Part shown: in pieces, positions 8,016 through 28,573 of the stretch | Position numbering within the stretch: the first letter of the stretch is position 1 | Layout of the letters: each line of letters starts with the position of its first letter | Assembly (NCBI RefSeq): GCF_009707545.1 | Contig: NZ_WLYK01000001.1 | Span: forward strand, 372,001 to 436,000 | Reading direction: 5' to 3' | DNA length: 64,000 nucleotides | Source of the DNA: Nakamurella alba | GTDB taxonomy: Bacteria > Actinomycetota > Actinomycetes > Mycobacteriales > Nakamurellaceae | The notes under the pieces: model-generated | The model's input: the letters and a program-made list of their open reading frames with translations, nothing else | Database searches by the model: none | Told to the model about the DNA's origin: nothing | Program-made: the position numbers and the translations under genes

Positions 8016-10042
8016 CCGCCCCGGTCGACCCGATGGCCGCCGGCTTCGCGCTGCGCGCGACCGGCCTGCTGCGGGACTTCAACCAGGCCGGCCTGCTCGA
8101 CGCCGGCGACGTGCACGTGGCGTCCCGACTCTCGGCACTCGCCGGTGAGACGGACGAGACCGTCTCGCTGGCACTGGCTCTCGCTGTGGCCGCGGTGCGT
8201 GGCGGATCGGTGTGCGTGGACCTGACCGACCCGCCGGTCATCGACACCACCGAGGTGACCTCCGGCGCCACGGCGTCCGGGGCCGGCGTGGCGCCGGAGG
8301 CCGTCCCACCCTGGCCGGAGCCGGGACCCTGGATCGCGGCCGTCCGCCGGAGCCCGCTGACCGCCGACCTGGGGGCCGGGCCGGACCTGTTCGGTACCTG
8401 GTCCGACGACCTCACCGAAGGTTCCCGGCCGCTGCGGTACGACCGGGGCCTGCTCTACCTCGACCGCTACTGGCGGGACGAGTGCGACGTGGCCGCCGAT
8501 CTCGCCGCCCGGGAACGGTCCGCCGGACCGTCGGTCGACGCCGCGAGGCTGGATCGCGCGGTGGTGCGCTACTTCCGCGGCCCCGACGGCGACCCGCGCA
8601 CGGACGACCATGACGACAGGGCCGCGGAGCTGGAGGCGTGGGGGATCACCCGGCGGGCTGCGCGGACCGCGGCCACCCGGTGGACCACCGTGCTCGGCGG
8701 CGGCCCCGGGACCGGGAAGACCACCACCGTGGCCCGGCTCCTCGCCGTGCTCACCGAGATCTCCGATCCCGGCGCGCCCGGCTCCAGGAAACCTGGCAGC
8801 GCCACGGGTGTCGCCCCCGGACCGCTGCGGATCGCCTTGGCCGCGCCGACCGGGAAAGCCGCCGCCCGGCTGCAGGAGGCGGTGACCGCCGAGATCGGCG
8901 CCTCGGTCCGGCCGGTCGCGCCCGAGATCGCCGATCGGCTCGGCGCGCTGCAGGCATCCACCCTGCACCGATTGCTCGGCGCGGTCGGCGGTCGCGGGCT
9001 GACGTTCCGGCACGACCGCACCCACCGGTTGCCGCATGACGTGGTGGTCGTCGACGAGGCCTCGATGATCTCGCTGACCCTGATGGCCCGACTGCTCGCG
9101 GCGATGCGACCGGATGCGCGGCTGGTCCTGGTCGGCGATCCGGCCCAGCTCGCGTCGGTGGAGGCCGGTGCGGTGCTCGCCGACATCGTCGACGGGCTCG
9201 ACGGGCTCGACGGGGCGGGGTCCGCTCCCGTGAGCGGCGAGGAGGTCGACGGCGTCCCGTCCGGGGGCACCGTTCCGGGACGGGCGGCCGGGGCCGGGAT
9301 CGTCCGGCTCGAGCACAACTGGCGGTTCGGCGGCGACATCGCCCTGCTGGCGACGGCGGTGCGCCGCGGTGACATCGACGGGGCCACGGAGATCCTCGAC
9401 GCCTCGGGATCCGCGGTCGAGTTCCTGCCCGACGGCGGCACGGCCGGGGCGCGGGCGGATGTGGTCGCCGCAGGCCGGGACCTGCGGGCCGCCGCGATCG
9501 CCGGTGACGCCGCAGCTGCGCTGCGCCACCTGGACGCGCACCGTCTGCTGTGCGCTCACCGGGCGGGGCCGACCGGCGTCGATCACTGGCGCCGACAGGT
9601 GGAGGCTTGGCTCGCCGCCGACCGCGGTGAGCCGGAGAGCGGGCCCTGGTACCCGGGGCGCCCGGTGCTGATCACCGCGAACGACTACCCGCTGGGCCTG
9701 TTCAACGGCGACACCGGTGTGGTCGTGCTCGACGCCGACGGCGAGCCACGGGTGGTGTTCGCCCGCGGCACTGGCACCGTGTCCTTCCGGCCGACCCGGT
9801 TGGACCGGTTCGAGACCGTGCATGCGATGACGGTGCACCGCAGCCAGGGGAGCCAGTTCGGCACGGTCACCCTGGTGCTGCCGGAGGTCGGGTCTCCGCT
9901 GCTCACCCGGGAACTGCTCTACACCGCCATCACCCGCGCCCGGAACAAGGTCCGGATCCTCGGCGACCGGGAGGCCTTCGCCGCGGCCGTCGCACGGCCC
10001 GCCGCCCGGGCCAGCGGCCTGCGGGGCCGGTTGGGTGGCTGA
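8012..10042 (+). CDS. recD: Exodeoxyribonuclease V subunit alpha (RecD helicase)
   Basis: This encodes 676 residues of a 5'-3' superfamily 1B helicase, the fast motor of RecBCD. Walker A is GGPGTGKTTT near residues 229-238. The DEAD-like Walker B is VVVDEASMISL, and the C-terminus carries the UvrD-like motif VHRSQGSQFGTV and LLYTAITRAR. ATG 8012 overlaps the recB stop (ATGA) and gives the standard N-terminus; the frame continues upstream but inside recB. With recC and recB it forms a complete operon in the order C-B-D. Many actinobacteria rely on AdnAB instead, so a full RecBCD is worth noting. Confidence 0.95.
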   Translation: MTAPVDPMAAGFALRATGLLRDFNQAGLLDAGDVHVASRLSALAGETDETVSLALALAVAAVRGGSVCVDLTDPPVIDTTEVTSGATASGAGVAPEAVPPWPEPGPWIAAVRRSPLTADLGAGPDLFGTWSDDLTEGSRPLRYDRGLLYLDRYWRDECDVAADLAARERSAGPSVDAARLDRAVVRYFRGPDGDPRTDDHDDRAAELEAWGITRRAARTAATRWTTVLGGGPGTGKTTTVARLLAVLTEISDPGAPGSRKPGSATGVAPGPLRIALAAPTGKAAARLQEAVTAEIGASVRPVAPEIADRLGALQASTLHRLLGAVGGRGLTFRHDRTHRLPHDVVVVDEASMISLTLMARLLAAMRPDARLVLVGDPAQLASVEAGAVLADIVDGLDGLDGAGSAPVSGEEVDGVPSGGTVPGRAAGAGIVRLEHNWRFGGDIALLATAVRRGDIDGATEILDASGSAVEFLPDGGTAGARADVVAAGRDLRAAAIAGDAAAALRHLDAHRLLCAHRAGPTGVDHWRRQVEAWLAADRGEPESGPWYPGRPVLITANDYPLGLFNGDTGVVVLDADGEPRVVFARGTGTVSFRPTRLDRFETVHAMTVHRSQGSQFGTVTLVLPEVGSPLLTRELLYTAITRARNKVRILGDREAFAAAVARPAARASGLRGRLGG

Positions 10043-10250
10043 GATCGGGCGGCCTCGGGCGGGCTCGGGCGGCCTCGGGTGGGTGCGGTGATCCCTGAAG
10101 GCCGGCGACCACCCGGAGGCCGGGCCCTGTGCCGGGCGGACCGGTCACCTCTGGCACACCGACCGGGAGCCGCGGAGTGTGGTGAGGACGCGATCAGAGC
10201 CGGTCGGCGACGCCCGATGCGACGATCCCGACGACCCCGGCCCTGCGGTC

Positions 10251-10302
10251 GACAGCACCCGGGTGTCGGAGCCGACAGCACCCGGGTGTCGGAGCCGACA
10301 GC
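10251..10302. repeat. 23-bp direct repeat, about 2.3 copies
   Basis: The unit starts GACAGCACCCGGGTGTCGG and occurs at 10251-10273 and 10274-10296, identical by eye, followed by GACAGC of a third copy. Each unit contains the palindrome CACCCGGGTG, so transcribed RNA could form alternating hairpins. Function is unknown. Confidence 0.75.
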
Positions 10303-10350
10303 GGGGGTGACGTAGGTCGCGGTCGCCGACCCGCCGGCCGGACGTACGGT

Positions 10351-10366
10351 GTGAACCTGGGTTCAC
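10351..10366. promoter_or_regulatory. Palindrome upstream of thiolase (candidate operator)
   Basis: The sequence is GTGAACC-TG-GGTTCAC, a perfect 7-bp inverted repeat with a 2-bp centre, 47 bp before the thiolase start. Size and symmetry fit a TetR/GntR-type operator. The cognate regulator is not identifiable in the window. Confidence 0.5.
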
Positions 10367-10413
10367 CAATGCCGCCGGCCTGACGCGGGCCGGCCGTAGC
10401 GCGAGGAGGCGCC

Positions 10414-11610
10414 GTGGCGCACGCCGTGATCGTCGATGCCGTTCGTACCGCGAGTGGCAAGGGCAAGATGGGCGGGTCGTTGTCGGGCCTGCATCCGGTG
10501 GATCTGCTGGCGCAGACCATCAAGGGGTTGGTGGACCGGTCGGGTATCGACCCGGCGGTGATCGACGACGTGATCGCCGGCTGCGTGGGCCAGGCGGGGG
10601 AGCAGTCGTTCAACATCGCCCGCAACGCGGCGCTGGCGGCCGGGTTGCCGGTGGAGGTGCCCGGCACGTCGGTGGACCGGCAGTGCGGTTCCAGCCAGCA
10701 GGCGGCGCACTTCGCGGCGCAGGGCGTGATCGCCGGCGCCTACGACGTGGTCATCGCGGGTGGCGTGGAGTCGATGAGCCGCGTGCCGATGGGCTCGCAC
10801 TCGATGGGCAAGGACCCGTTCGGCCCGATGATGCACGCCCGGTTCGCCGCGGATCCGCTGGTGCCGCAGGGTATCTCGGCGGAGCTGATCGCGGCGCAGT
10901 GGAAGTTCGACCGGGAGGACCTGGACAGCTACGCCGCCCGGTCGCACCAGCGGGCCGCCGCCACCGCCGCGGCCGGCGGGTTCGCAAGGGAGATCCTGCC
11001 GCTGCCGGTGACCGCCGCCGACGGCAGCCAGGTCACTTTCGCGGCCGACGAGACGGTGCGCGCCTCGACCACGGTGGAGGGCCTGGCCGGGCTCAAGCCC
11101 GCGTTCCAGACCGAGGAGTACGCGCAGCGGTTCCCGCAGATCGGCTGGCACATCACTCCGGGCAACTCCTCGCCGTTCACCGACGGGGCCTCGGCGGTGC
11201 TGATCATGAGCGAGCAGCGGGCCAAGGAGCTGGGCCTGACCCCGCGGGCCCGGTTCCACAGCTTCGCGGTCACCGGCGACGACCCGCTGATGATGCTGAC
11301 CGGCCCGATCCCGGCGACCCGGAAGATCCTGGGCCGCAGCGGCCTGTCCATCGACGACCTGGACGCCTACGAGGTCAACGAGGCGTTCGCGTCGGTGCCG
11401 CTGGCCTGGCAGCAGGAGTTCGGCGCGGATCCGGAGAAGCTCAACCCGCGCGGTGGGGCGATCGCGCTCGGCCACCCGCTCGGCGCGTCCGGCACCAAGC
11501 TGCTCACCACGATGCTGCACCACCTCGAGGACACGGGCGGCCGCTACGGCCTGCAGACCATGTGCGAGGGCGGCGGCATGGCCAACGCCCTCATCCTCGA
11601 GCGTCTCTGA
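10414..11610 (+). CDS. Acetyl-CoA C-acyltransferase (thiolase)
   Basis: This 398-residue thiolase cleaves 3-ketoacyl-CoA with CoA, or condenses two acyl-CoAs. The nucleophilic cysteine is C91 (VDRQCGSSQQ), the catalytic histidine is H354 (ALGHPLGAS) and the second cysteine is C384 (MCEGGG). All three match the degradative thiolase arrangement. GTG 10414 follows a GAGGAG sequence. The gene stands alone, with a palindrome before it and a 23-bp perfect hairpin after it. Substrate chain length cannot be read. Fatty-acid or steroid side-chain beta-oxidation is likely, and a biosynthetic acetoacetyl-CoA role is possible. Confidence 0.93.
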   Translation: MAHAVIVDAVRTASGKGKMGGSLSGLHPVDLLAQTIKGLVDRSGIDPAVIDDVIAGCVGQAGEQSFNIARNAALAAGLPVEVPGTSVDRQCGSSQQAAHFAAQGVIAGAYDVVIAGGVESMSRVPMGSHSMGKDPFGPMMHARFAADPLVPQGISAELIAAQWKFDREDLDSYAARSHQRAAATAAAGGFAREILPLPVTAADGSQVTFAADETVRASTTVEGLAGLKPAFQTEEYAQRFPQIGWHITPGNSSPFTDGASAVLIMSEQRAKELGLTPRARFHSFAVTGDDPLMMLTGPIPATRKILGRSGLSIDDLDAYEVNEAFASVPLAWQQEFGADPEKLNPRGGAIALGHPLGASGTKLLTTMLHHLEDTGGRYGLQTMCEGGGMANALILERL

Positions 11611-11639
11611 GACCGCACCACAGCACACCTGCCCGACGG

Positions 11640-11693
11640 CAGGACTGCGGGTGCCGGCACCCGGCAGAGCGGGTGCCGGCACCCGCAGTCCTG
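11640..11693 (+). terminator. Strong hairpin after thiolase gene
   Basis: A perfect 23-bp inverted repeat has arms 11640-11662 and 11671-11693 and an 8-nt loop. Each arm contains the palindrome GGGTGCCGGCACCC. There is no U-tract, as is usual in high-GC actinobacteria. It starts 29 nt after the stop codon. Confidence 0.75.
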
Positions 11694-11725
11694 GGCGTCC
11701 GGCGGGTGAACTGACGGGATCTGGT

Positions 11726-11743
11726 CAGTTCTGTTCAGAACTG
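11726..11743. promoter_or_regulatory. Palindrome CAGTTCTG-TT-CAGAACTG upstream of ppdK
   Basis: This is an 18-bp perfect inverted repeat with a 2-bp centre, 221 bp before the ppdK start and beyond the thiolase terminator. It is a candidate operator for ppdK. The binding protein is unknown. Confidence 0.5.
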
Positions 11744-11963
11744 CGATCCCCAAGGTCGAACAGCCCCGCGCACGACTCCCCATGACAGCGTTGCCATCAG
11801 CGCACTTTCGATCGTCTGATTCGATCCAGAGACTGAAATCCCTTTCCGGGCAATCCTCTTGGTGAACAGTGCGTGCCATCCTTGCTCCCTCATCCGGACG
11901 CGGGCGTCGAGGTGTCGCCCCACGAAGGCGCACCGACCGGCCCGCCGTGTGCAAGGAGCCGCC

Positions 11964-14675
11964 GTGACGAAGTACGTCTACAAGTTCACCGAGGGCGACA
12001 AGGACCAGAAGGATCTGCTCGGCGGCAAGGGCGCGAACCTCGCGGAGATGACCCGGCTCGGCCTGCCGGTACCACCCGGGTTCACCATCTCGACCGAGGC
12101 CTGCCGGGAGTACCTGGCGCAGGGTGCGGAGCCCGGCGAACTGCGCGTGCAGGTGACCATGGCGCTGCGCAACCTGGAGGACGAGACCAACCGCCGGCTC
12201 GGCGACCGGCACGACCCGCTCCTGGTGAGTGTCCGCTCCGGGGCGAAGTTCTCGATGCCGGGCATGATGGAGACGGTGCTGAACGTCGGGCTGAACGATG
12301 CCAGCGTCAAGGGTCTCGCCGAGGCCAGTGGCGACGAGCGGTTCGCCTGGGACTCCTACCGCCGGTTGCTGCAGATGTTCGGCCGTACCGTCCTTGACAT
12401 CCCCGGCGAGGTCTTTTCCGACGCGATCGACAAGGCCAAGGCCACCCGGGGCGTGCTGTCCGACGTCGACCTGGACGTCGACGACCTGCGAGGGCTCGTC
12501 CGCGAGTTCAAGGACGCGGTGCTGGAGCACAGCGGGGCCGAGTTCCCGCAGCATCCGCGCGAACAGCTGGACATGGCGATCCGCGCCGTCTTCGACTCCT
12601 GGAACACCGACCGGGCCCGGCTCTACCGGCGCCGCGAGCGCATCCCGCAGGACCTGGGCACCGCGGTCAACGTCTGCACCATGGTCTTCGGCAACCTGGG
12701 CTCCACCAGCGGCACCGGAGTCGCCTTCACCCGGGACCCGGCGACCGGGCGGCCCGGCGCCTACGGCGACTACCTGCCCAATGCGCAGGGCGAGGACGTC
12801 GTCGCCGGCATCCGGAACACGCTGTCCCTGGAGGATCTGGCTGCCTCCGACCCGGCCTCGCACGCCCAGCTGCAGAAGGTCATGCGGCGGCTGGAGAACC
12901 ACTACCGCGACCTGTGCGACATCGAGTTCACCGTCGAACGCGGCCAGCTGTGGATGCTGCAGACCCGGGTCGGCAAGCGCACTGCCGCTGCGGCCTTCCG
13001 GATCGCCTCGCACCTGGTCGACGAGCAGCTGATCACCATGGACGAGGCCCTGTCCCGGGTGTCCGGGAACCAGTTGGCGCAGTTGATGTTCCCGCAGTTC
13101 GACCCGAAGGCCGAACGCACCCGGCTCACCAGGGGGATGGCCGCCTCCCCGGGTGCGGCCGTCGGCAAGGTGGTGTTCACCTCCGCCGAGGCGACCCGCC
13201 GCGCGGCCGAGGGCGACACGGTGATCCTGGTCCGCAAGGAGACCAACCCGGACGACCTCGAGGGCATGCTGGCGGCCGAGGGCATCCTCACCGCGCGCGG
13301 CGGGAAGACCAGTCACGCAGCGGTTGTCGCCCGTGGCATGGGCAAGACGTGTGTCTGCGGCGCCGAGGAGCTCGAGGTCGATGCGGTCGCCAAGCGGGTG
13401 CAGGTGGGCTCCACGGTCATTGCCGAGGGCGATCTGATCTCCATCGACGGCTCCACCGGCGAGGTGTTCATCGGTGCGCTCGAGGTCGTCCCGTCGCCGG
13501 TCGAGACCTACCTCGAACACGGCCTGGAGCGGGCAGTGGCCGAGGTGGACGAGCAGACCGCCGAACTGGTGCAGGCCGTCGACCGGTTGCTCGGGCATGC
13601 AGACCAGCGCCGCCGACTGCAGGTGCGGACCAATGCGGACACCGCCGAGGACGCACTCCGGGCACGGAGTCTCGGTGCGCAGGGCATCGGTCTGTGCCGG
13701 ACCGAGCACATGTTCCTCGGTGACCGCCGGGCGTTGATCGAGCGGGTCATCCTGGCCGACGACGCCGCCGGCCGGGACGAGGCTCTCGCGGCGTTGCTGC
13801 CGCTGCAGCGGCAGGACTTCGAGGACCTGCTGACGGCGATGGACGGGCTGCCGGTCACCATCCGGCTGCTCGACCCGCCGCTGCACGAGTTCCTGCCCGA
13901 CCGCACCGATCTCGCCGTCAAGGTGGCGCTCGCCGGAGCGGCCGGCACCGACACGGAGGAGACCCGGCAGGACAGGCAGATGCTGTGGGCCGTGGAGCGG
14001 ATGCACGAGTCGAACCCGATGCTGGGGTTGCGCGGTGTCCGGCTCGGCCTGCTGGTGCCCGGTCTGTTCGCGCTGCAGGTACGGGCGATCGCCGAGGCGA
14101 CGGTCGCCCGGCGCCGGGCCGGCGGCGACCCGAAGGTCGAGATCATGGTCCCGCTGGTCGGTTCCGTGATGGAGCTCTACCTGGTCCGCGACGAGTCGGA
14201 CGGCATCATCGCGGAAGTTGCTGCGGCGGAGGACATTCCGCTGCAGATCCCGATCGGCACGATGATCGAGCTGCCGCGGGCCGCGCTCACCGCGCACCGG
14301 ATCGCCGACGCCGCGGACTTCTTCTCCTTCGGCACCAACGACCTGACCCAGACGACCTGGGGCTTCTCCCGGGACGACGTCGAGGCGGCGGTGTTCGCCG
14401 CCTACCTGGAGAAGGGCGTGTTCACCATCTCGCCGTTCGAGGCGATCGACGCCGACGGCGTCGGCCGCCTCGTGCAGATCGCCGCGAAGGAGGGGCGGCG
14501 CACGAAACCCGAACTGAAGCTGGGTGTCTGCGGCGAGCACGGCGGTGACCCGGAGTCCATCCACTTCTTCCACGCCACCGGGCTGGACTACGTGTCCTGC
14601 TCGCCGTTCCGGGTCCCGGTGGCCCGGTTGGAGGCGGGGCGGGCCGCCGTCCACGGGGAGCCGGCCCGCCGCTGA
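11964..14675 (+). CDS. ppdK: Pyruvate, phosphate dikinase
   Basis: This 903-residue enzyme interconverts pyruvate + ATP + Pi with PEP + AMP + PPi, linking glycolysis and gluconeogenesis. It opens VYKFTEGDKDQKDLLGGKGA with the ATP-grasp N-domain. The phosphorylated histidine is H451 in GGKTSHAAVVARG. The C-terminal PEP/pyruvate TIM barrel carries GTNDLTQTTWGFSRDD and CGEHGGDP, with the catalytic cysteine near residue 856. GTG 11964 sits behind AAGGAG and gives the conserved N-terminus. Length matches bacterial PPDKs. It is a single-gene unit flanked by hairpins, and no PPDK regulatory protein is adjacent. Confidence 0.97.
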   Translation: MTKYVYKFTEGDKDQKDLLGGKGANLAEMTRLGLPVPPGFTISTEACREYLAQGAEPGELRVQVTMALRNLEDETNRRLGDRHDPLLVSVRSGAKFSMPGMMETVLNVGLNDASVKGLAEASGDERFAWDSYRRLLQMFGRTVLDIPGEVFSDAIDKAKATRGVLSDVDLDVDDLRGLVREFKDAVLEHSGAEFPQHPREQLDMAIRAVFDSWNTDRARLYRRRERIPQDLGTAVNVCTMVFGNLGSTSGTGVAFTRDPATGRPGAYGDYLPNAQGEDVVAGIRNTLSLEDLAASDPASHAQLQKVMRRLENHYRDLCDIEFTVERGQLWMLQTRVGKRTAAAAFRIASHLVDEQLITMDEALSRVSGNQLAQLMFPQFDPKAERTRLTRGMAASPGAAVGKVVFTSAEATRRAAEGDTVILVRKETNPDDLEGMLAAEGILTARGGKTSHAAVVARGMGKTCVCGAEELEVDAVAKRVQVGSTVIAEGDLISIDGSTGEVFIGALEVVPSPVETYLEHGLERAVAEVDEQTAELVQAVDRLLGHADQRRRLQVRTNADTAEDALRARSLGAQGIGLCRTEHMFLGDRRALIERVILADDAAGRDEALAALLPLQRQDFEDLLTAMDGLPVTIRLLDPPLHEFLPDRTDLAVKVALAGAAGTDTEETRQDRQMLWAVERMHESNPMLGLRGVRLGLLVPGLFALQVRAIAEATVARRRAGGDPKVEIMVPLVGSVMELYLVRDESDGIIAEVAAAEDIPLQIPIGTMIELPRAALTAHRIADAADFFSFGTNDLTQTTWGFSRDDVEAAVFAAYLEKGVFTISPFEAIDADGVGRLVQIAAKEGRRTKPELKLGVCGEHGGDPESIHFFHATGLDYVSCSPFRVPVARLEAGRAAVHGEPARR

Positions 14676-14697
14676 TCCGGCGCAGCGCCGGGGGCGC

Positions 14698-14727
14698 AGG
14701 GGGCCGACGTGGTAGCGTCGGCCCCCT
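14698..14727 (+). terminator. Hairpin terminator after ppdK
   Basis: A perfect 12-bp inverted repeat has arms AGGGGGCCGACG and CGTCGGCCCCCT around the loop TGGTAG. It lies 22 nt after the ppdK stop and immediately before the NUDIX gene. Confidence 0.8.
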
Positions 14728-14766
14728 GCCCTCGTGAGACCGCTGATCAGGAGCCCGATCCCACCG

Positions 14767-15255
14767 ATGCCGAGCGCACTGCACTCACTGAAGTCCACGG
14801 CCCGGACGGTCGCCTACTCCGCGTTCGGCAAGCTGCCGCCGCGGGTCCGCCGGGGCCTGGTCGGAGTGCTCACGCCGTCCTTCACCGTCGGCGCGCTGGC
14901 GATCCTGCACGACGGCGACAAGATCCTGTTCGTCCGGCAGCTGCACCGGCCCGGGTTGGCGCTGCCGGGCGGGCTGCTCAAGAAGGGCGAGTCGGCGCGG
15001 ACCGGATTGGCCCGGGAGCTGTCCGAGGAGATCGGCGTCGATCCGACCGGGCTGGCACCGGCGCCCGACACCGCTCACGTCGATCCGGCCAAGAAGCGCG
15101 TCGACCTGATCTGGCTGCTGCCGACCGACCGGCAGCAGGTCGAGGTGGCCACCGGCTCCGAGGTGCTGTCCTACGAGTGGCGCACGGCCGCCGACGGCGA
15201 GCTGACCCCGCAGACCAAGGAGATCCTGGCCGGGATCGCCTCCCGCCTGCCCTGA
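14767..15255 (+). CDS. NUDIX hydrolase
   Basis: This 162-residue NUDIX protein has a complete Nudix box, G-x5-E-x7-REL-x-EE-x-G, visible as GLLKKGESARTGLARELSEEIG. That run is centred on the conserved glutamates that bind the metal. The first residues form a short basic/hydrophobic region before the domain (FTVGALAILHDGDKILFV). Substrate is unknown; the family cleaves nucleoside diphosphates linked to other groups. ATG 14767 is preferred, with AGGAG 13 nt upstream. GTG 14734 in the same frame is possible but lacks a ribosome site and abuts the ppdK terminator. Confidence 0.88.
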   Translation: MPSALHSLKSTARTVAYSAFGKLPPRVRRGLVGVLTPSFTVGALAILHDGDKILFVRQLHRPGLALPGGLLKKGESARTGLARELSEEIGVDPTGLAPAPDTAHVDPAKKRVDLIWLLPTDRQQVEVATGSEVLSYEWRTAADGELTPQTKEILAGIASRLP

Positions 15256-15288
15256 TCGGCGGGGTGCTGCGATGACACGGATCCAGCC

Positions 15289-16074
15289 GTGACAACTGTG
15301 CCGGAGCCGGCCGGGGTGGTGCTCGCCGCGGGCCGCGGGTCCCGGATGAGCCCGCTGACCGATGTGGTGCCCAAGCCGCTGCTCACCGTCGGCAACGTGT
15401 CCCTGCTGGAGCTGGCGATCCGCCGGATGGAGCGACTGACCTCGTCGCTCGCCGTCAACGCCCACCACCTGGCGGACCAGATCGCCGCCGCGGCCGGGCA
15501 ACTGCACCCCGGCATCGAGGTGTCGTTCGAGCGGGAGAGGCTGCTCGGCACCGCCGGTGCGCTCTGGCAGCTGCGGGACTGGATCGACGGTCGGCCGGTG
15601 GTGGTGGCCAACAGCGACGTCTGGTTGCAGGGCCCGGTCGACCAGCTGCTCGAGGGCTGGGACGGCCGCCGGCCGCGGCTGCTGGTCAAGGACATGGGCC
15701 GGCCGGCCGACTTCGGCACGCTGCGGTTCCTCGGGGTGTCCACCGTTCCGGCGGACGTGGCCGCCCGGCTCGGCCCGGATCCGGACGGGTTGTACGCGGC
15801 GGTCTGGAAGAACGCCCACGCGTCGGGGGGACTGGAGTTCGTCGAGGTGGTGGGCGAGGCCCACGACTGCGGCACCCCGGCCGAGTTCCTCACCGCCAAC
15901 CAGCTCGCCGCCGGCACCGACTCGGTGGTCGCGCCGGATGCCGTGGTGGAGGGGACGATCCGCGAGGTGGTGCTGCTTCCCGGCGCCCGGGTGGCGGCGG
16001 GGGAGCACCTCGAGCGGGCGATCCGGGACGCCTGCGGCCACACGCTGGACGCGGGCGATACAGTCCGCCCGTGA
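15289..16074 (+). CDS. Sugar-1-phosphate nucleotidyltransferase
   Basis: This 261-residue protein of the NTP_transferase family couples a sugar-1-phosphate to an NTP, giving an activated NDP-sugar. The signature appears at the N-terminus as VVLAAGRGSRMSPLTD followed by PKPLLTVG. A middle motif LLGTAGAL and metal-binding NSDVW also fit. Length and arrangement resemble MurU-like and RmlA-like cytosolic enzymes, without the C-terminal hexapeptide repeat seen in GlmU. GTG 15289 comes 33 bp after the NUDIX stop. The stop overlaps the next gene by 4 bp (GTGA). The sugar is not determinable. Confidence 0.87.
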   Translation: MTTVPEPAGVVLAAGRGSRMSPLTDVVPKPLLTVGNVSLLELAIRRMERLTSSLAVNAHHLADQIAAAAGQLHPGIEVSFERERLLGTAGALWQLRDWIDGRPVVVANSDVWLQGPVDQLLEGWDGRRPRLLVKDMGRPADFGTLRFLGVSTVPADVAARLGPDPDGLYAAVWKNAHASGGLEFVEVVGEAHDCGTPAEFLTANQLAAGTDSVVAPDAVVEGTIREVVLLPGARVAAGEHLERAIRDACGHTLDAGDTVRP

Positions 16075-16724
16075 CCGCCCCCGGTACCACCCGTACCCAT
16101 GTGCCCGCCTGGCACCGGCTGCTGGGTCTGCTGCGGATCGCCTTCGCGCTGGCCACGTTGGCCGCCGTCATCGGGCAGATCGTCATCTCGACGGGACGTC
16201 CCGGGTTCCGGGTGGACAACTTCTTCTCGTTCTTCACGATCGAGTCGAACGTGCTGAACATGGTGGTGATGGGCGCCGCAGGGGTGCTTGCGCTCTCCGG
16301 TCGGTCGGCCACCCGGCTCGCCGCCTGGCGTGGGGCTGCCACGCTCTACATGACGATCACCGGTATCGTGTACGTCACGCTGCTGTCCGGTCTCGAGGCC
16401 TCGCTGCAGACGGCGACGCCGTGGGTGAACACGATCCTGCACTACCTGATGCCGGTGGTTGCGCTGGTCGACTTCCTCGTCGACCGCACGGTGCGGCCGC
16501 TCGGGTTCGTCCGGCCGGGGCTGTTCTGGCTGATCTTCCCGTTGCTCTACCTGATCTACAGCGAGATCCGCGGGCCGATCATCGACTGGTACCCCTACCC
16601 GTTCCTGAACCCGGACAACGGGATCGGCGGAGTGGTGGTGGCGAGCCTGGGCATCGCGGTGCTGGCCGTCGTGCTGACCTGGCTGCTCTGCTTCTCGACC
16701 CGGGCACGCACGCCTCGTCCGTAG
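16071..16724 (+). CDS. Pr6Pr-family integral membrane protein
   Basis: This 217-residue protein has about six hydrophobic segments, starting at LLGLLRIAFALATLAAVIGQ. The motif FFTIESNVLN and the block LHYLMPVVALVDFLVD are typical of Pr6Pr (FAR-17a/AIG1-like) bacterial membrane proteins. Eukaryotic relatives hydrolyse fatty-acid esters, but the bacterial function is not established. It is translationally coupled to the nucleotidyltransferase by a GTGA overlap, which may only reflect compact organisation. Confidence 0.83.
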   Translation: MTAPGTTRTHVPAWHRLLGLLRIAFALATLAAVIGQIVISTGRPGFRVDNFFSFFTIESNVLNMVVMGAAGVLALSGRSATRLAAWRGAATLYMTITGIVYVTLLSGLEASLQTATPWVNTILHYLMPVVALVDFLVDRTVRPLGFVRPGLFWLIFPLLYLIYSEIRGPIIDWYPYPFLNPDNGIGGVVVASLGIAVLAVVLTWLLCFSTRARTPRP

Positions 16725-16823
16725 ATCGCCGGCGGCTGCCCCCGATCTCGGGTGGCCGATGTCGTCAGGCCGGCGTTGGTCGGCCACCGTTCGTCAGGCC
16801 ACCCCGGCCTCGGATCTCCGGCG

Positions 16824-17576
16824 TCAGATGGCCGATGCGGGCAGCGGGGACAGATCCGACTGCCGCTGCCGGGACGGCCGGGCGGCGAGCAGTGCGTGGA
16901 TGCCGAGGAAGACCACCGCGAGCACCTCGGTCAGCGCCAGGCCGCGCTCGACCAGGCCCAGTGGGACCGCCTGCCACCAGCGCGTGGTGCTGCTGACCAG
17001 CATCGCGACCAGGATCCAGACGAACCACAACGGCGAGATCACCGCGAACCAGAAGGCGGTGCGGGAGGCCCAGCTGCGCACCTTGTCCGCGCGGACCAGC
17101 AGGATCACCGCGAGCGGCAGGGCCAGGAACGCGACCAGGCTGGCCATCCGGTGCACCGTGCCGCTGGCGCTCGGGCCGACGGACCAGTTGTGCTTGGGGA
17201 AGACGACCAGGGTGAGCATCCCGACCACCCACAGGGTCCCGAACAGGTGCCCGAACGACAGCTTCCGCATGCTGCCGGAGACCAGGGGAGCGGCGAAGAC
17301 GGCCAGCGAGCCGAGCGCCAGGGCGACCACGCCGGCGTTGAACACCCACGCCAGGTCGGACAGCCCGTACTCGCTGATGGTCCGGCGGACGAGGGAGGTC
17401 TGATTGGTCGGCGGGATGACGTGGAGCAGCCCGACCAGGACGATCGAGGACGCCGCCCCGACGACGCCGACGGTGCCGAGCACCCGGGCCGAGCGGGTCC
17501 GGTCGGCGGTCGTCGATGCGGTCCCGACGGTGCCGGTGGTGGTGGCGACGTTCACCGCGGTCTCGGCCACGGTCAC
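16824..17576 (-). CDS. DUF998-type integral membrane protein
   Basis: This protein of about 250 residues has a Thr-rich N-terminal tail and then roughly six membrane spans. The motif TISEYGLSDLAWVFNAG after the first span is the mark of DUF998 proteins, whose function is unknown. GTG 17574-17576 was chosen because GAGGACGAGAAGAG lies just before it; a GTG two codons later is also possible. The gene is convergent with the Pr6Pr gene and divergent from the L,D-transpeptidase, with a 403-bp shared upstream region. Confidence 0.85.
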   Translation of the reverse strand: MTVAETAVNVATTTGTVGTASTTADRTRSARVLGTVGVVGAASSIVLVGLLHVIPPTNQTSLVRRTISEYGLSDLAWVFNAGVVALALGSLAVFAAPLVSGSMRKLSFGHLFGTLWVVGMLTLVVFPKHNWSVGPSASGTVHRMASLVAFLALPLAVILLVRADKVRSWASRTAFWFAVISPLWFVWILVAMLVSSTTRWWQAVPLGLVERGLALTEVLAVVFLGIHALLAARPSRQRQSDLSPLPASAI

Positions 17577-17979
17577 CTCTTCTCGTCCTCGTGCCCTCCC
17601 GGTCGGTGCCGGACGGACTGCTTGCTCGGTGCACGACGGCGGGCCCCTGCCGGTTCGATCCGGTCGATCGCGGTGCACGGAACCGTGACCACGACCTGAA
17701 CCGGACCGGTACCCCCGGCGTCCTCCCCACCAACGGTACCGACGCCGGAATGGTGCCCGGTGTGACCGAAAACGTGCCGAAAGCCGCAGCCGGTGATCCG
17801 GGCGCTGGTCGTTCCGACATCACGATCGGGCGACAACTCGGCGGAACGGGAACCGGCTGCGCTCCGAAGCGTGTCAATAGGTGTAGGTCAACACGAGGTA
17901 AAGGCGCATGCGGCACCATGGGGGTGCCGTCGGCGCAGCAGCCGCCCGCGGCACGGGTGGCGAGGAGGGAGCGGTACAG
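17577..17979. other. Divergent intergenic region, DUF998 / L,D-transpeptidase
   Basis: This 403-bp region carries promoters for two divergent genes. An 8-bp inverted repeat CCGGCGTC/GACGCCGG (17715-17722 and 17741-17748) is present. An A/T-richer patch near 17872-17905 is the best place for the L,D-transpeptidase promoter. Nothing protein-coding is convincing. Confidence 0.5.
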
Positions 17980-19320
17980 ATGACGGGTCGACGGATGCGA
18001 CTGATGGGGATCGCGGCGGCAGCACTCGCCTGCGTGCTGGTGGCGGCCGGCTGCTCGCCGTCCTCGGGTCAGGCCGACGTCACCGATCCGGCCTTCGTCA
18101 CCACGCCCGCCACGACCGCCGCTGCGAGCACCCCGTCGAGCTCCCAGGTGACGGTCACCGTGCCGGCCGGGACCACCTCGGACACGGCCAGCGGCGGGAG
18201 CACGTCGACCACCCCGGAGCCGACCACACCCACCACCCCGTCCACCTCCTCCAGCACACCGCCGCCCGTTCCGGCAGCGAAGGTGACCACCACCCCGGCG
18301 ACCGGCAGCAAGGGGATCTCGCCGGTCGCGCCGATCTCGGTCAAGGTGGCCGAGGGCACGCTGCAGAAGGTCTCGCTGAAGAACTCGCAGACCGGCGTGA
18401 CCGTCGAGGGGAAGATGGCCGCCGACAAGCTGTCCTGGACGGTGACGCCGGAGCTGGGCTACGGCAAGAACTACACGCTCACCTCGACCGCGGTGAACGC
18501 CGAGGGCAAGGCCAGCACCCACGAGACCACCTTCGCCACCATCACCCCGGACAACCAGACCGATGCCTCCACCTTCCCCCGGGACGGCTGGAAGGTCGGT
18601 GTCGGACAACCGGTTTCGGTCGTGTTCGACGAGCCGATCACCGACAAGAAGGCCGCTCAGGACGCCATTACCATCTCCACGAACCCGAAGCAGGAGGGCG
18701 CCTTCCGCTGGTTCTCCGACAGCGAGGTGCACTGGCGGCCGAAGGTCTACTGGAAGCCCGGGACCAAGGTCTCGGTGAAGGTCGACATCTACGGCAAGGA
18801 CCTCGGCGGCGGCCTCTACGGCATGCAGGACGAGGCGTTCTCGTTCACCGTCGGCGACTCGATGATCGCGGAGATCGACGACAACTCGAAGATCATGGTG
18901 ATCAAGAAGAACGGCGCCGTGATCAAGGAGATGCCGGTCTCGTTGGGCAGCAACACCTATCCGACCTACAACGGCGTGCACGTGGTCGCGGAGTCCTACG
19001 AGGAGAAGATCATGGACTCCTCGACCTGGGGCCTCACCGGCACCGGCGCCTACCGGACCCGGGTCGAGTGGGCGGTGCGGATCAGCTCCACGGGCGAGTT
19101 CGTGCACGCCGCTCCCTGGTCGGTCTGGGCGCAGGGCAGCGAGAACGTCTCGCACGGCTGCGTCAACGTGTCCACCGAGAACGCCAAGTGGTTCTACGAC
19201 AACTTCACCTTCGGCGACATCGTCGACATCAAGAACACCGTCGGTACCGACCTGCAGTCCTGGGACGGCTACGGCGACTGGCAGCTGAGCTGGGACGTGT
19301 ACCGCCAGGGCTCCGCCTGA
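17980..19320 (+). CDS. L,D-transpeptidase lipoprotein with Ig-like domains
   Basis: This 446-residue lipoprotein cross-links peptidoglycan through 3-3 (meso-DAP) bonds. The signal peptide ends in the lipobox VAAGC, with lipidated C25. A Thr/Ser/Pro-rich stalk (about 35-95) leads to Ig-like domains and then the YkuD catalytic domain, whose motif SHGCVNVS holds H392 and nucleophile C394. This is the architecture of mycobacterial LdtMt2-type enzymes. ATG 17980 is preceded by GGAGGGAG, and upstream in-frame codons would destroy the signal peptide. It is monocistronic by position. Confidence 0.95.
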   Translation: MTGRRMRLMGIAAAALACVLVAAGCSPSSGQADVTDPAFVTTPATTAAASTPSSSQVTVTVPAGTTSDTASGGSTSTTPEPTTPTTPSTSSSTPPPVPAAKVTTTPATGSKGISPVAPISVKVAEGTLQKVSLKNSQTGVTVEGKMAADKLSWTVTPELGYGKNYTLTSTAVNAEGKASTHETTFATITPDNQTDASTFPRDGWKVGVGQPVSVVFDEPITDKKAAQDAITISTNPKQEGAFRWFSDSEVHWRPKVYWKPGTKVSVKVDIYGKDLGGGLYGMQDEAFSFTVGDSMIAEIDDNSKIMVIKKNGAVIKEMPVSLGSNTYPTYNGVHVVAESYEEKIMDSSTWGLTGTGAYRTRVEWAVRISSTGEFVHAAPWSVWAQGSENVSHGCVNVSTENAKWFYDNFTFGDIVDIKNTVGTDLQSWDGYGDWQLSWDVYRQGSA

Positions 19321-23515: not shown

Positions 23516-23833
23516 TCAGGTCGCCGCCGGCGGGGGCTCCTGCGCGAGATCAGCGCGCACCCGATCGCGAACCTCCCGCGCCCATTCCGCGTAGGTGTAG
23601 CCGAAGTCAGCTGGGTGAACCTCCGCGTCCATCTGATCTTCGAGAATTCGGGTAATCGTCTGGTCGTCGAACCGCAGCAATAAGTCGAGTTGCTCGATCA
23701 GTTCCACTTTCGCGGTGGTGCCACTCTTGAGGAATTCCTTGATCGGCTGCCAGGTGTCGTCGCCGGCGATCAATGGCCAGTCCTCGTCGTAGTAGACGTT
23801 CAGCAGATGCTGGATGCGGTAGTAGGTGCCCAA
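23516..23833 (-). CDS. CdiI-type immunity protein (cognate of Rhs toxin)
   Basis: This 105-residue acidic protein begins MGTYYRIQHLLNVYYDEDW and continues with DDTWQPIKEFL and a C-terminal WAREVRDRVRADL. The pattern matches contact-dependent inhibition immunity proteins of the CdiI_2 type by recollection of the family. It lies 18 bp downstream of the Rhs gene on the same strand, the normal place for an immunity gene. The start is TTG 23831-23833, supported by AAGGGGA about 7 nt upstream. Base composition is less GC-rich than its surroundings, as for the toxin tip. It presumably binds and blocks the RNase domain in the cytosol. Confidence 0.8.
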   Translation of the reverse strand: MGTYYRIQHLLNVYYDEDWPLIAGDDTWQPIKEFLKSGTTAKVELIEQLDLLLRFDDQTITRILEDQMDAEVHPADFGYTYAEWAREVRDRVRADLAQEPPPAAT

Positions 23834-23851
23834 CGTGAAGTCCCCTTCGGT

Positions 23852-26800
23852 CTACGGAGTTGACACTGGCTTCGGAAGCCCTGGGAATGATGTCTTGATA
23901 AGGTACCCAGTTGGCATCGTTGCATCCTTCTGGAGAACTACTCGATACTCTCGGAGCTTGGTGACCTTCAGCCCTTTCCTCCTTATCGAGGTTCCGATAA
24001 TCAATCGACTGCGATCGTCAATTTCTAGCGGATCGATGGATGAGGATGCGAGCCAAGCATCAATGTCTGACTTGCGCTTACGTAGGGTGCGACTGATCAG
24101 TCGCTCCGCGGTACGTCGATCACGAAAACTCGACGACTTGTGCACCTTCGGGTTGTCGGTCATTCGCTGGATGAGTTCAGGTTCCGATTTCCCCACATGC
24201 CACCTTAGCGTGTGTCCCCTCTCCCATGGAGTCTCGCCTTCATGAGCTTTCAGACCTCCGCCCGGAACGATATCGCTGGACTGGCACTTCAGCCCGAGCG
24301 GGTCGATCCAGCGGGTGGGGTTGAGGACGTAGCGGTGGGGATCGGGCGCGGGGGAGAGGCCGAGGGGGTCGGGGGAGAGGTAGCGACCGGTGGCCGGGTC
24401 GTAGTAGCGGCGGAGGTTGTAGTGCAGGCCGGTCTCGGCGTCGAAGTACTGGCCGGCGAAACGCAGCGGGCACCGCGACGGATCGGATCCGGTGCCGCGG
24501 GACAGACCCCACAGCGTCGGGTCGGACGACCACACGACCTCCCGCCCGTCGACCGTCACCAGCGCGGTCGGTGACCCGGCGAGGTCGGTCAGCACGGCGA
24601 AGAGCTGCTCCCCACCGGGACCGGTCTCGTGCTGGAGGATCGGGGTCCAGTCGTCGTACTCCCAGCCTGTGACGCCGTCCTCGCGGATCTCCTCCATCAG
24701 GCGGAACTCGTCCCAGGCGAAACGGACGACCTCGAGCACGGTCCCGTCGGCCGTCCGGTGCTCCTTGCGGCGACGTCGGAACATGCAGTCGTAGCTGTAG
24801 AACCAGCTGGTGCCGTCGGGCAGGTCGACCCGGATCAGTTGGTCGTCGGCGTCCCAGACGAAATGGGTCGATTCGCCGGTCCGGACATCGCGCTTGGAGA
24901 TCAACCGGCCGTCGGCGTCGTACGAGTACCCGACGTCGCCGGCCCTGGTGAGCAGGGTGCCGTCGTAGGTGCGGCGCTCCGTCACGCCGTCGAGATCGGC
25001 GGTGACGACGTTGCCGGACGGGTCGTAGCCGTACCGTTCCCGGCCCGAGGGGCCGCCGACCACCGCCACCCGGCCACCCGGGTCGAGCTCCCAGGACCGC
25101 GACCCCGACCGGTCGGAGGAGCCGATCATGGTGCCGTCCGCCAGCCGCCGGATCCGCAGGTCACGGATCTCTGCGTTGCCGCCGGCCGGCAGTCCGTCAT
25201 CGAGTGGCACCTCGGATGCGAATGCAGGCTGACGGAACACCTCGCTGCCGGCCGGTACCGGGCCATCGACGTCAGAAGCGACCCCGCACGGACCTGCGGC
25301 ACCACCGCCCGGGGCAGGGTCCCGGGACCCTGCCCGCTGCGCGACCAAGTCACCGACGGCATCGAGTTCGTCGACCACGGTCAGCCCGCCGGTGAAGTCC
25401 CGCCGGATGGACCGCCCTGCGCGGTCGTAGGAGTAGGTGACGTCGATGCCGCCGGTGCAGAGCGCGGCTACCCGGCCGGCCGGGTCGTAGGTCCAGAAGG
25501 TCTCGCGGCCGGAGGGCAGCCGCCGCGCGGACACCGCGCCGACCGCGTCGAACCCGACCAGCAGCTCCATCCCGTCGGTGAGCTCCACCGCCAGATCGCC
25601 GTCGTGGCCGATCAGGGTGGAGGTGTGCTCACCGGCGGCCTCCATCAGGTCGCCGCGCCCGTTCCACTCGAACCGGATCGTGTCCTGATCGGTCGACTTC
25701 GCCGAGATCCGGCCCAGCTCGTCGCGCTCGAAGCGCACCTCCTGACCGGAGGCGTTGCGCCGCAGCACCGGCTCGCCGAGCTCGTCGTAGGCGAAGGTGC
25801 AACGCCGGCCGTTGAAGTCGGTCTCCGCGACCACCTGCCCGGCCGGGTCGTACTCGTAGCTCCAGCGCAGACCCTCCGGGTTGACCACACCGGTCAGCCG
25901 CAGCTCGGTGTCGTACTCGAACCGGAACACCGCGCCGTCCGGATCGGTGCGCGACACCGGCAGGTCGAGCATCCCGATGGTCCAGCGGGTGACCGCGCCG
26001 ACCTCGTCGATCTCCTCGACCAGGTTGCCCTCGGCGTCCCACCGCGACCGGCGCACCGACCCGTCCGGTCCGAACAACGCAGCGAGCCGGCCTTCCACCG
26101 TCCAGCTGCGGATCTCGGCGCCGCCGTCCGGCAGCACCGTCCGGCGGGTCCGGCCGAAGGCGTCGAGTTCGAACCGGGTCACCTCGCCGGTCGGTGCGGT
26201 GATCCCGGTGAGTCGCCCGGCAGCGTCGCTGTCGAACACGGTGACCGCGCCGAGTGCATCGGTCTCGGTCGCCGGCACGCCGGTGGAGCGATAGGTCCGC
26301 CGTGTCACCTCGTCGCCGGGCCCGGTCTCCACCAGCAGATTGCCGAGGTCGTCGTGCTCGAAGGTGGTGACCCGGCCGTCCTGGTCGGTGAGCCGGGCAG
26401 GCCGCCCGTGGCCGTCCCGCTCGATCCGCACCTGGCTGCCGTCCACTTCGATCCGCTCCAGCAACCGCCCCTGCGAGTCGCGGACGTACTGGACGGTGCG
26501 GCCCAGCGGATCGGTTTCGGTGACCACCCGGTCGAAGGAGTCGTACAGCGCGCTGCGGGTCCGTCCGATCGGGTCGACGGTGCGCACGACCTGGCCGTCC
26601 TCGTTGTACTCGTGCAGGCTGACCGCGCCGGTCGAATCGGTGACCGTGGTACGGCCCAGGCCGTACGAGAACCCGTAGGAGAGCAGCTGTTCCCGCCCGG
26701 AGGTACGGACGCAGCGGGACTCCTCGTCGTAGACGTAGGCGTACCAGACGCCGTTGCGGTCCTCCCAGCCGGTGACCCGACAGGCGGCGTCGTAGCTGAG

Positions 26801-28573
26801 TTTCAGCGGCAGTCCCGAGGAGTTGACGATCCCGCTGACACCCTCGGCGACGTGCTGGAACCGGACGACATCGACCATGCCGCCTGGGGAATCGGGGTCG
26901 ATCAGGCCGATCCACTCGTAGCGCCCGTGCGCCGATGCGACCAGGACCTGGTACCCGCCGGAGTGCGAGATCTCGTACACCAGACCGGCACTCGTCCGGC
27001 GGAAGTCGATCCGGTTGCCGACGACGTCGGTGATGGCATGCAGCAGCAGGTTCTCGCCGAACCATCGGGTGATGTACTCGACCGGGTCGAGCACCTGCCA
27101 TCCGGTACCGTCACGACGCAGCTCCCACCGCCGGGATCCCCAGCGCGCCACCACGACTCCGCTTGCCGGCAACGCCGCGGCACCCTCGAAGAGCAGGGCC
27201 GATCCGTCCTCGGTGAGCAGCACCATGTCGTCGCCCGGCTGCGGCAGCAGGCGCTGATCCAGCGTCGATGCCCAGGACTGCCCGAATCCGCCGCCCCATC
27301 GGTAGGAGCTCAGATGGGTGCGGACCAGCACCAGCGGCAGCACCGACGGCAGCTCGAGATCGACGTGATGCATGACCATCTCGCCGGTGACCACGTCGAT
27401 CGGGTCGCTCGCGCAGGTGCGGCCGCGCAGCGGCATCCGGGTGCTCGCCGAGCCGAGCCCGGCATCACCTGCCCGCCCGCCTGCGGCCGCGGACCCAGCC
27501 GGAGCGGACCCAGCCGGAGCAGATCCCGCGCCCGCACCACCGGACGTCGCACGTGGACCACCGGACTTCGCGGCTCCGGAGCCGCCGGTACCGCCCGCCT
27601 TCGACCCTCCGCGCGCCCCGAGCGCACCCAGCCCGACCACCATGGCCAGGTCGGCCAGGGACGCCTCACCGGTCGCCACCTGGTACCCGGTCACCGCGAC
27701 ATCCGCTGCCATCACGGCCTTCGCCGCCCGCACTCCCGGGACGAGACCCAGCGCATCCAGGCCGATCTGGGACCAGGATCCCTCGCCGGTGGTCACCTTG
27801 ACGCCGACGTCCATGGCGACCGCGGCGGCGCCGGTGGCCAGCGCGATGGGCCCGGCGATCGGGGTGAAGATCGGGATCAGCGCCAGCACCCCGGCGATCC
27901 CGGAGATCGTCTTCAGCAGCGACGACAGGCCCTTGATCGCGTCGATCCGCTCGCGCACCCAGTCGGACACCGAGTCGCACAGGCTCTCGAACCACCCGGG
28001 TGGCTCCTCGAACCGCAGGTCCTGCGCCTTCCGGATCTCCGACACACAGGTCTGCACGGCGAGCGAGTGCTCGGCCTGCACGCCGTTGGCAGCGTCGATG
28101 GTCTGCTGCAGGACGGCCCGGGAGCTTTCGAGATCGGCGGTGGCGGCGGGTGTCCCGGAGACGTACGGCGCATCCGACCCGGGCGGGTCAGCAGCGTCAG
28201 CAGCAGCGGCAGCACTGTCGGCGGCCGTCGCCGAGGCGACATCCGCCTCGGCCGCACCGACCAGCGCCTGCTGGGCGTCCCGATCGGCGACCAGCCCGGT
28301 CAGCCGGCCCTGGAACTCCTCCAGCCGGTCGGCGTAGCCGGACAGCGCACCCGCGACCAGTGTCCAGGCCTGGGCGGTGGTCTCCAGGCGCGGCGGGAGG
28401 TCGGCGTCCATCCGCTCCCGGTAGAGATCGCCCTCGTCACCGGCGAACTCGGTGGCGTCCAGCCGCCGGATGTCGGCCGCCGCCGTCGATGTCGCGCCGG
28501 CGAAGCTGCTCCAGCCGGCCGCCGACGCCCTGATCTCCGCCGGGCTCCCACCCAGCACGAACGGATCCCCCAC
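23852..28573 (-). CDS. Rhs-repeat polymorphic toxin with RNase A-like C-terminal domain
   Basis: This encodes about 1573 residues. The first ~130 are a helical WXG-like, putative type VII export domain, and a hydrophobic stretch lies at about 217-262. A DUF6531 segment precedes many YD/RHS repeats. The core ends in RYLSPDPLGLSPAPDPHRYV and DPLGL. The last 143 residues (nt 23855-24283) are the toxin: GGGLKAHEGE, GHTLRWHVGK, SSFRDRRTAERL and YLIKTSFP. These fit the bacterial RNase A-like CdiA-CT family. GTG 28573 follows GGAGGGG and gives the usual N-terminus. The toxin part is much lower in GC than the core, a sign of tip exchange. Confidence 0.9.
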   Translation of the reverse strand: MGDPFVLGGSPAEIRASAAGWSSFAGATSTAAADIRRLDATEFAGDEGDLYRERMDADLPPRLETTAQAWTLVAGALSGYADRLEEFQGRLTGLVADRDAQQALVGAAEADVASATAADSAAAAADAADPPGSDAPYVSGTPAATADLESSRAVLQQTIDAANGVQAEHSLAVQTCVSEIRKAQDLRFEEPPGWFESLCDSVSDWVRERIDAIKGLSSLLKTISGIAGVLALIPIFTPIAGPIALATGAAAVAMDVGVKVTTGEGSWSQIGLDALGLVPGVRAAKAVMAADVAVTGYQVATGEASLADLAMVVGLGALGARGGSKAGGTGGSGAAKSGGPRATSGGAGAGSAPAGSAPAGSAAAGGRAGDAGLGSASTRMPLRGRTCASDPIDVVTGEMVMHHVDLELPSVLPLVLVRTHLSSYRWGGGFGQSWASTLDQRLLPQPGDDMVLLTEDGSALLFEGAAALPASGVVVARWGSRRWELRRDGTGWQVLDPVEYITRWFGENLLLHAITDVVGNRIDFRRTSAGLVYEISHSGGYQVLVASAHGRYEWIGLIDPDSPGGMVDVVRFQHVAEGVSGIVNSSGLPLKLSYDAACRVTGWEDRNGVWYAYVYDEESRCVRTSGREQLLSYGFSYGLGRTTVTDSTGAVSLHEYNEDGQVVRTVDPIGRTRSALYDSFDRVVTETDPLGRTVQYVRDSQGRLLERIEVDGSQVRIERDGHGRPARLTDQDGRVTTFEHDDLGNLLVETGPGDEVTRRTYRSTGVPATETDALGAVTVFDSDAAGRLTGITAPTGEVTRFELDAFGRTRRTVLPDGGAEIRSWTVEGRLAALFGPDGSVRRSRWDAEGNLVEEIDEVGAVTRWTIGMLDLPVSRTDPDGAVFRFEYDTELRLTGVVNPEGLRWSYEYDPAGQVVAETDFNGRRCTFAYDELGEPVLRRNASGQEVRFERDELGRISAKSTDQDTIRFEWNGRGDLMEAAGEHTSTLIGHDGDLAVELTDGMELLVGFDAVGAVSARRLPSGRETFWTYDPAGRVAALCTGGIDVTYSYDRAGRSIRRDFTGGLTVVDELDAVGDLVAQRAGSRDPAPGGGAAGPCGVASDVDGPVPAGSEVFRQPAFASEVPLDDGLPAGGNAEIRDLRIRRLADGTMIGSSDRSGSRSWELDPGGRVAVVGGPSGRERYGYDPSGNVVTADLDGVTERRTYDGTLLTRAGDVGYSYDADGRLISKRDVRTGESTHFVWDADDQLIRVDLPDGTSWFYSYDCMFRRRRKEHRTADGTVLEVVRFAWDEFRLMEEIREDGVTGWEYDDWTPILQHETGPGGEQLFAVLTDLAGSPTALVTVDGREVVWSSDPTLWGLSRGTGSDPSRCPLRFAGQYFDAETGLHYNLRRYYDPATGRYLSPDPLGLSPAPDPHRYVLNPTRWIDPLGLKCQSSDIVPGGGLKAHEGETPWERGHTLRWHVGKSEPELIQRMTDNPKVHKSSSFRDRRTAERLISRTLRKRKSDIDAWLASSSIDPLEIDDRSRLIIGTSIRRKGLKVTKLREYRVVLQKDATMPTGYLIKTSFPGLPKPVSTP

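Follow-up and report, generated by a model that had tools for sequence, protein, structure and literature searches.

Is the combination of an RNase A-like toxin and a CdiI-type immunity gene on an actinobacterial Rhs carrier an exceptional one, and is such a toxin likely to be active if a tyrosine considered important in its characterized homologue is replaced by phenylalanine? These questions are raised by a locus in the window, i.e., the whole stretch of 64,000 nucleotides of Nakamurella alba DNA that was analysed, which belongs to a high-GC genome of 6.05 Mb in 29 contigs. Judged by its sequence, the locus is an ordinary bacteria-against-bacteria weapon, composed of an Rhs shell, an RNA-cutting tip and a matching antidote gene. 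The following features make up the locus:

23852..28573, minus strand: Rhs-type polymorphic toxin, 1573 amino acids, GTG start (open reading frame and Pfam/NCBIfam domains)
28106..28552, minus strand: putative T7SS secretion signal domain PF21725, residues 8-156 (score close to the cut-off; backed by a paralogue)
27188..27406, minus strand: DUF6531, residues 390-462 (Pfam)
24290..24487, minus strand: Rhs-associated core TIGR03696 (Rhs_assc_core), residues 1363-1428 (NCBIfam)
23882..24217, minus strand: RNAse_A_bac toxin domain PF18431, residues 1453-1564 (Pfam and structure match)
23516..23833, minus strand: CdiI_2 (PF18593) immunity protein, 105 amino acids, TTG start (Pfam, AAGGGGA Shine-Dalgarno sequence, predicted pI 4.4)

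A first-pass annotation had named a type VII-like N-terminus, an RHS core, an RNase A-like tip and, within 18 bp, a CdiI-type gene, and these assignments as well as their coordinates agree with the Pfam and NCBIfam matches. The GTG start of the toxin frame is preceded by a purine-rich Shine-Dalgarno sequence, the protein harbours 13 RHS_repeat matches (Pfam), and its Rhs-associated core stops just ahead of the tip junction DPLGLKCQ, while 18 nt separate the toxin stop codon from the TTG start of the CdiI_2 gene. Accordingly, the locus combines RHS/YD repeats, an Rhs-associated core and a variable C-terminus with an immunity gene, as expected of an Rhs polymorphic toxin. No Pfam domain of the CdiBAI type (filamentous haemagglutinin repeats, CdiB transporter) was found in the carrier, which has Rhs repeats instead.

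The tip scores far above chance against the RNAse_A_bac model, as anticipated by the earlier annotation (91.4 bits versus a gathering cut-off of 27, E 8.9e-26, model positions 1-113 of 113). Its sole solved relative is chain B of PDB entry 5E3E, the CdiA-CT toxin of Yersinia kristensenii (“Ykris”; E 3e-20, 40% sequence identity). An AlphaFold model of the tip (mean pLDDT 92) superimposes on this toxin chain with a Z score of 17.1 and 1.4 Å over 114 residues, and the next structural matches are vertebrate angiogenin and RNase A (Z about 5). The modelled tip is thus a bacterial RNase A-superfamily fold like that of CdiA-CT Ykris. Scanning genome contigs for tip homologues with the single protein gave no match; an alignment-based scan yielded 147, and from these a multi-phylum set of 80 named loci was retained. 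Neither viral contigs nor phage records contained a close homologue. Resolution of the tip gene tree is poor, and the window tip has a long branch in it.

The 105-residue neighbour likewise passes the profile comparison by a wide margin (CdiI_2, 38.3 bits versus a gathering cut-off of 26.7, E 2.3e-9). Its AlphaFold model (mean pLDDT 94) matches 5e3e_C with a Z score of 13.9 and 1.5 Å over 91 residues and contains the all-helical fold of CdiI Ykris; moreover, a profile built from CdiI_2 neighbours retrieves 5e3e_A at 6e-34. Since both proteins match partner chains of 5E3E, the two members of a structurally characterized complex have their counterparts in the window. They are also predicted to carry opposite charges, with a basic tip (pI 10.8) and an acidic immunity protein, which is what would be expected of an antidote covering an RNA-binding groove.

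The pairing itself is known already, and its crystal structure was solved for Y. kristensenii ATCC 33638 (5E3E; Batot et al. 2017, as reviewed in PMC9086364). The proposal that an RNase A-like toxin and a CdiI_2 protein meet here by chance or in a novel combination, which the first-pass annotation had put forward as an “unusual pairing”, therefore has practically no probability left: 5E3E is exactly RNAse_A_bac plus CdiI_2, and a census of neighbouring genes led us to reject the proposal. The genes directly downstream of profile-found RNAse_A_bac domains were inspected in 397 same-order genomes and 396 genomes from the phylum, and 22 of 25 downstream neighbours scanned in this actinobacterial census are CdiI_2 by Pfam. 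The same holds for 45 of 76 downstream genes in the multi-phylum census of the 80 named loci, making this pairing the commonest one in both samples. A CdiI_2-like neighbour is present at 79 of 106 loci according to a model built partly from the same data, and this count is therefore biased upward. A few census loci were counted twice under different handles.

The window locus and CdiA-CT/CdiI Ykris are alike in toxin family and fold, immunity family and fold, gene order and the His/Arg/Thr residues. They differ in the carrier, which is an Rhs protein with a T7SS-like N-terminus in the window and a CdiA/CdiB two-partner system in Y. kristensenii, as well as in the gene gap of 18 bp and in the phenylalanine that the window tip has in place of Tyr278. 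More distant members of the RNase A superfamily are MafB2-CT/MafI2 of Neisseria meningitidis and Ribocin of Pseudomonas aeruginosa, which share the fold (PMC9970974, PMC13189344) but hardly resemble CdiA-CT Ykris in sequence. The catalytic residues of MafB2 differ, as do the role of Ribocin and the immunity fold of MafI2.

The catalytic positions of the tip were mapped with the residue numbers of the 5E3E chain (168-281), and their occupancy was taken from an alignment of 50 homologues:

24197..24199, minus strand: His1459, corresponding to the general base His175 of Ykris; present in 50 of 50 homologues
24164..24166, minus strand: Arg1470, corresponding to Arg186 of Ykris; present in 49 of 50 homologues
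23891..23893, minus strand: Thr1561, corresponding to Thr276 of Ykris; present in 50 of 50 homologues
23885..23887, minus strand: Phe1563 at the position of Ykris Tyr278 (Tyr 27, Phe 20, Met 3 of 50)

The equivalents of His175, Arg186 and Thr276 are thus kept in the window tip, and the Tyr278 equivalent is absent. The earlier reading of a phenylalanine after TS in the motif YLIKTSFP, at the position of the tyrosine, was correct. The residue is not distinctive, however: phenylalanine is found in 20 of the 50 aligned homologues, and a motif count over 106 loci yields 50 Tyr, 26 Phe, 26 Met and 4 Val. Phenylalanine is hence the common second state of this column and does not mark the window protein out; on the evidence of the alignment, the tyrosine seen in the type member is not a defining residue of RNAse_A_bac. 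With this column left out, a tip tree was obtained that is poorly resolved and in which Tyr and non-Tyr states interchange at least 18 times.

Does the substitution imply that RNase activity disappeared together with the tyrosine hydroxyl, so that the tip would be an inactive, degenerate remnant accompanied by a leftover immunity gene? His175, Arg186, Thr276 and Tyr278 of the Ykris toxin are reported to be necessary for full activity (PMC9086364), and Phe1563 replaces one of the four. Yet the frame is open, the His, Arg and Thr residues are intact, and the partner gene is kept at a distance of 18 bp with a good ribosome-binding site. Moreover, 23 of the 26 Phe-bearing toxins retain a CdiI_2-like neighbour, and therefore phenylalanine at this position is probably not a sign of inactivity. 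In view of these features, and of how common the residue is, we judge a degenerate tip to be very improbable. A tip that is probably active with phenylalanine agrees with MafB2, in which a valine superimposes on Tyr278 and is dispensable (PMC9970974), and disagrees with Ribocin, where the equivalent tyrosine is needed (PMC13189344).

About half of the homologues sampled have another residue in place of the tyrosine that is deemed catalytic in the sole solved structure, which makes the role of this tyrosine directly testable. We advance only tentatively, as a doubtful proposition, that the Phe- and Met-bearing toxins, the window tip included, might use a different general-acid step compared to the Ykris enzyme, possibly combined with a different RNA preference. 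If so, the role of the tyrosine as derived from one structure would not be descriptive of the family.

The Streptomyces group of RNAse_A_bac toxins forms the main exception to the common pairing. Its members bear methionine at the Tyr278 position (L082, L084, L086, L088, L093, L098, L099, L104, L109, L110, L116, L117, L125, L126, L128, L131 and L135) and are mostly followed by a non-CdiI_2 gene coding for about 190-220 amino acids, which possibly represents another immunity family directed at this toxin fold.

The less common aspect of the window locus is its carrier. In a pattern test with short flanks, only the window locus among the actinobacterial search loci had an Rhs core beside RNAse_A_bac. 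The earlier suggestion that an actinobacterial Rhs carrier is unusual thus holds for the actinobacterial copies sampled, but Rhs-borne copies exist elsewhere: RHS, RNAse_A_bac and CdiI_2 occur together at three gammaproteobacterial loci. These pairs from Pseudomonas (L065, L074) and Vreelandella (L071) resemble the window in having an RHS core, an RNAse_A_bac tip and an adjacent CdiI_2 gene. The Vreelandella protein, a VgrG-Rhs fusion, even ends in TSF as does the tip motif of the window, and it differs in its VgrG-type (type VI) N-terminus. The RNAse_A_bac/CdiI_2 pair is accordingly found on CdiA as well as on Rhs proteins of type VI and of T7 type; with the window, the known hosts of this cassette include an actinobacterial Rhs carrier that is probably secreted by a type VII system.

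Within the genus, the carrier is more widespread than the tip: an RNase A-like tip is found in 1 of 17 congeneric genomes and carrier-related sequence in 10. In two congeners (L039, L040) the shell is 47-51% identical, and the tip is an EndoU or a Tse2-like ADP-ribosyltransferase domain. The same Rhs carrier is therefore equipped with EndoU, Tse2-like or RNase A-like tips, i.e., tips are swapped within the genus. The genome of the window also encodes a paralogue whose shell is 45% identical as far as the DPxGLKCQ junction, which both proteins share; beyond it lies another tip, for which no Pfam or NCBIfam match was obtained and in which deaminase-like HAE and CxxC motifs are present. The tip also differs from the shell in nucleotide composition. 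GC content is 0.54 in the tip versus 0.72 in the shell, and GC3 amounts to 0.57 in the tip, 0.89 in the shell and 0.79 in the immunity gene. The sharp GC3 drop at 23855-24283 (the minimum for any equally long shell stretch is 0.80) is the signature of a foreign cassette; the low values are consistent with a cassette acquired from elsewhere, and the low-GC tip was probably obtained in this manner.

How the toxin leaves the cell is best approached through the paralogue, which adjoins EccC-like, EccD-like and two WXG100 genes in an ESX-like cluster:

locus L142 (G000:C5), 13016-17692, minus strand: paralogous Rhs toxin, 45% identity
locus L142 (G000:C5), 6571-8058, 8049-12251, 17858-18154 and 18302-18814: genes of the ESX-like cluster around the paralogue

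The T7SS_signal match of the window protein is marginal (28.2 bits versus a Pfam cut-off of 27), and a genome search with the same model gave 32.8 bits for the window protein and 44.8 for the paralogue. EccC is present in the genome above its cut-off; EccB (PF05108) was not found at a sensitivity that detects positive controls in relatives, and no ESX genes or WXG100 partners flank the window copy, while such genes do flank the paralogue. The secretion route is unproven, because the window copy lacks adjoining ESX genes and the genome lacks a detectable EccB. These two observations, together with the marginal signal score, speak for export by a non-ESX/T7SS route (e.g., a Sec-type or unknown pathway) that would leave the toxin and immunity functions unchanged. 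Such a route is rather unlikely, given that the paralogue with the same N-terminus sits in an ESX-like cluster (EccC, EccD, WXG100) and that a comparable architecture is found in the type VII (T7SSb) Rhs toxin LrhA of Listeria monocytogenes (PMC10327511). LrhA shares a helical N-terminus, DUF6531, RHS repeats and a C-terminal toxin with the window protein and has WXG100-type genes nearby, as does the paralogue; it differs in belonging to a Firmicute T7SSb and in having a tip without identification. The carrier family is thus probably a type VII substrate, for which the neighbourhood of the paralogue is the best evidence.

Taken together, we consider it highly probable that the window locus is the toxin-immunity module of an Rhs polymorphic toxin, consisting of a probably T7-targeted shell, an RNA-degrading tip and a CdiI_2 antidote in an exchangeable cassette. 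The architecture, the predicted fold, the residue conservation, the identity of the partner and the tip exchange among congeners, on which this reading is based, are shown by the analysis. By analogy to the carrier family and the paralogue, the N-terminal helical domain would most likely target the protein to the ESX/type VII apparatus, and the RHS repeats would form a shell enclosing the toxin. The released C-terminal domain would then enter a competing cell and, as suggested by homology, degrade RNA in a metal-independent manner, with His1459 acting as the general base together with Arg1470 and Thr1561. The Ykris toxin is described as cutting tRNA and rRNA unspecifically (PMC13189344), and homology therefore does not imply tRNA-specific cleavage. 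As in the 5E3E complex, the CdiI_2 protein would bind the basic active-site groove, thus protecting the producer and its kin. The tip and the immunity gene would have arrived as an exchangeable cassette joined to the DPxGLKCQ end of the shell.

Multiple RNAse_A_bac copies are found in two genomes of the same order, six in G093 (L012, L023, L025, L027, L028 and L029) and four in G069 (L003, L022, L024 and L026). Some of these copies are truncated or form an in-frame fusion with a CdiI_2-like stretch (L026), which suggests tandem tip/immunity cassettes.
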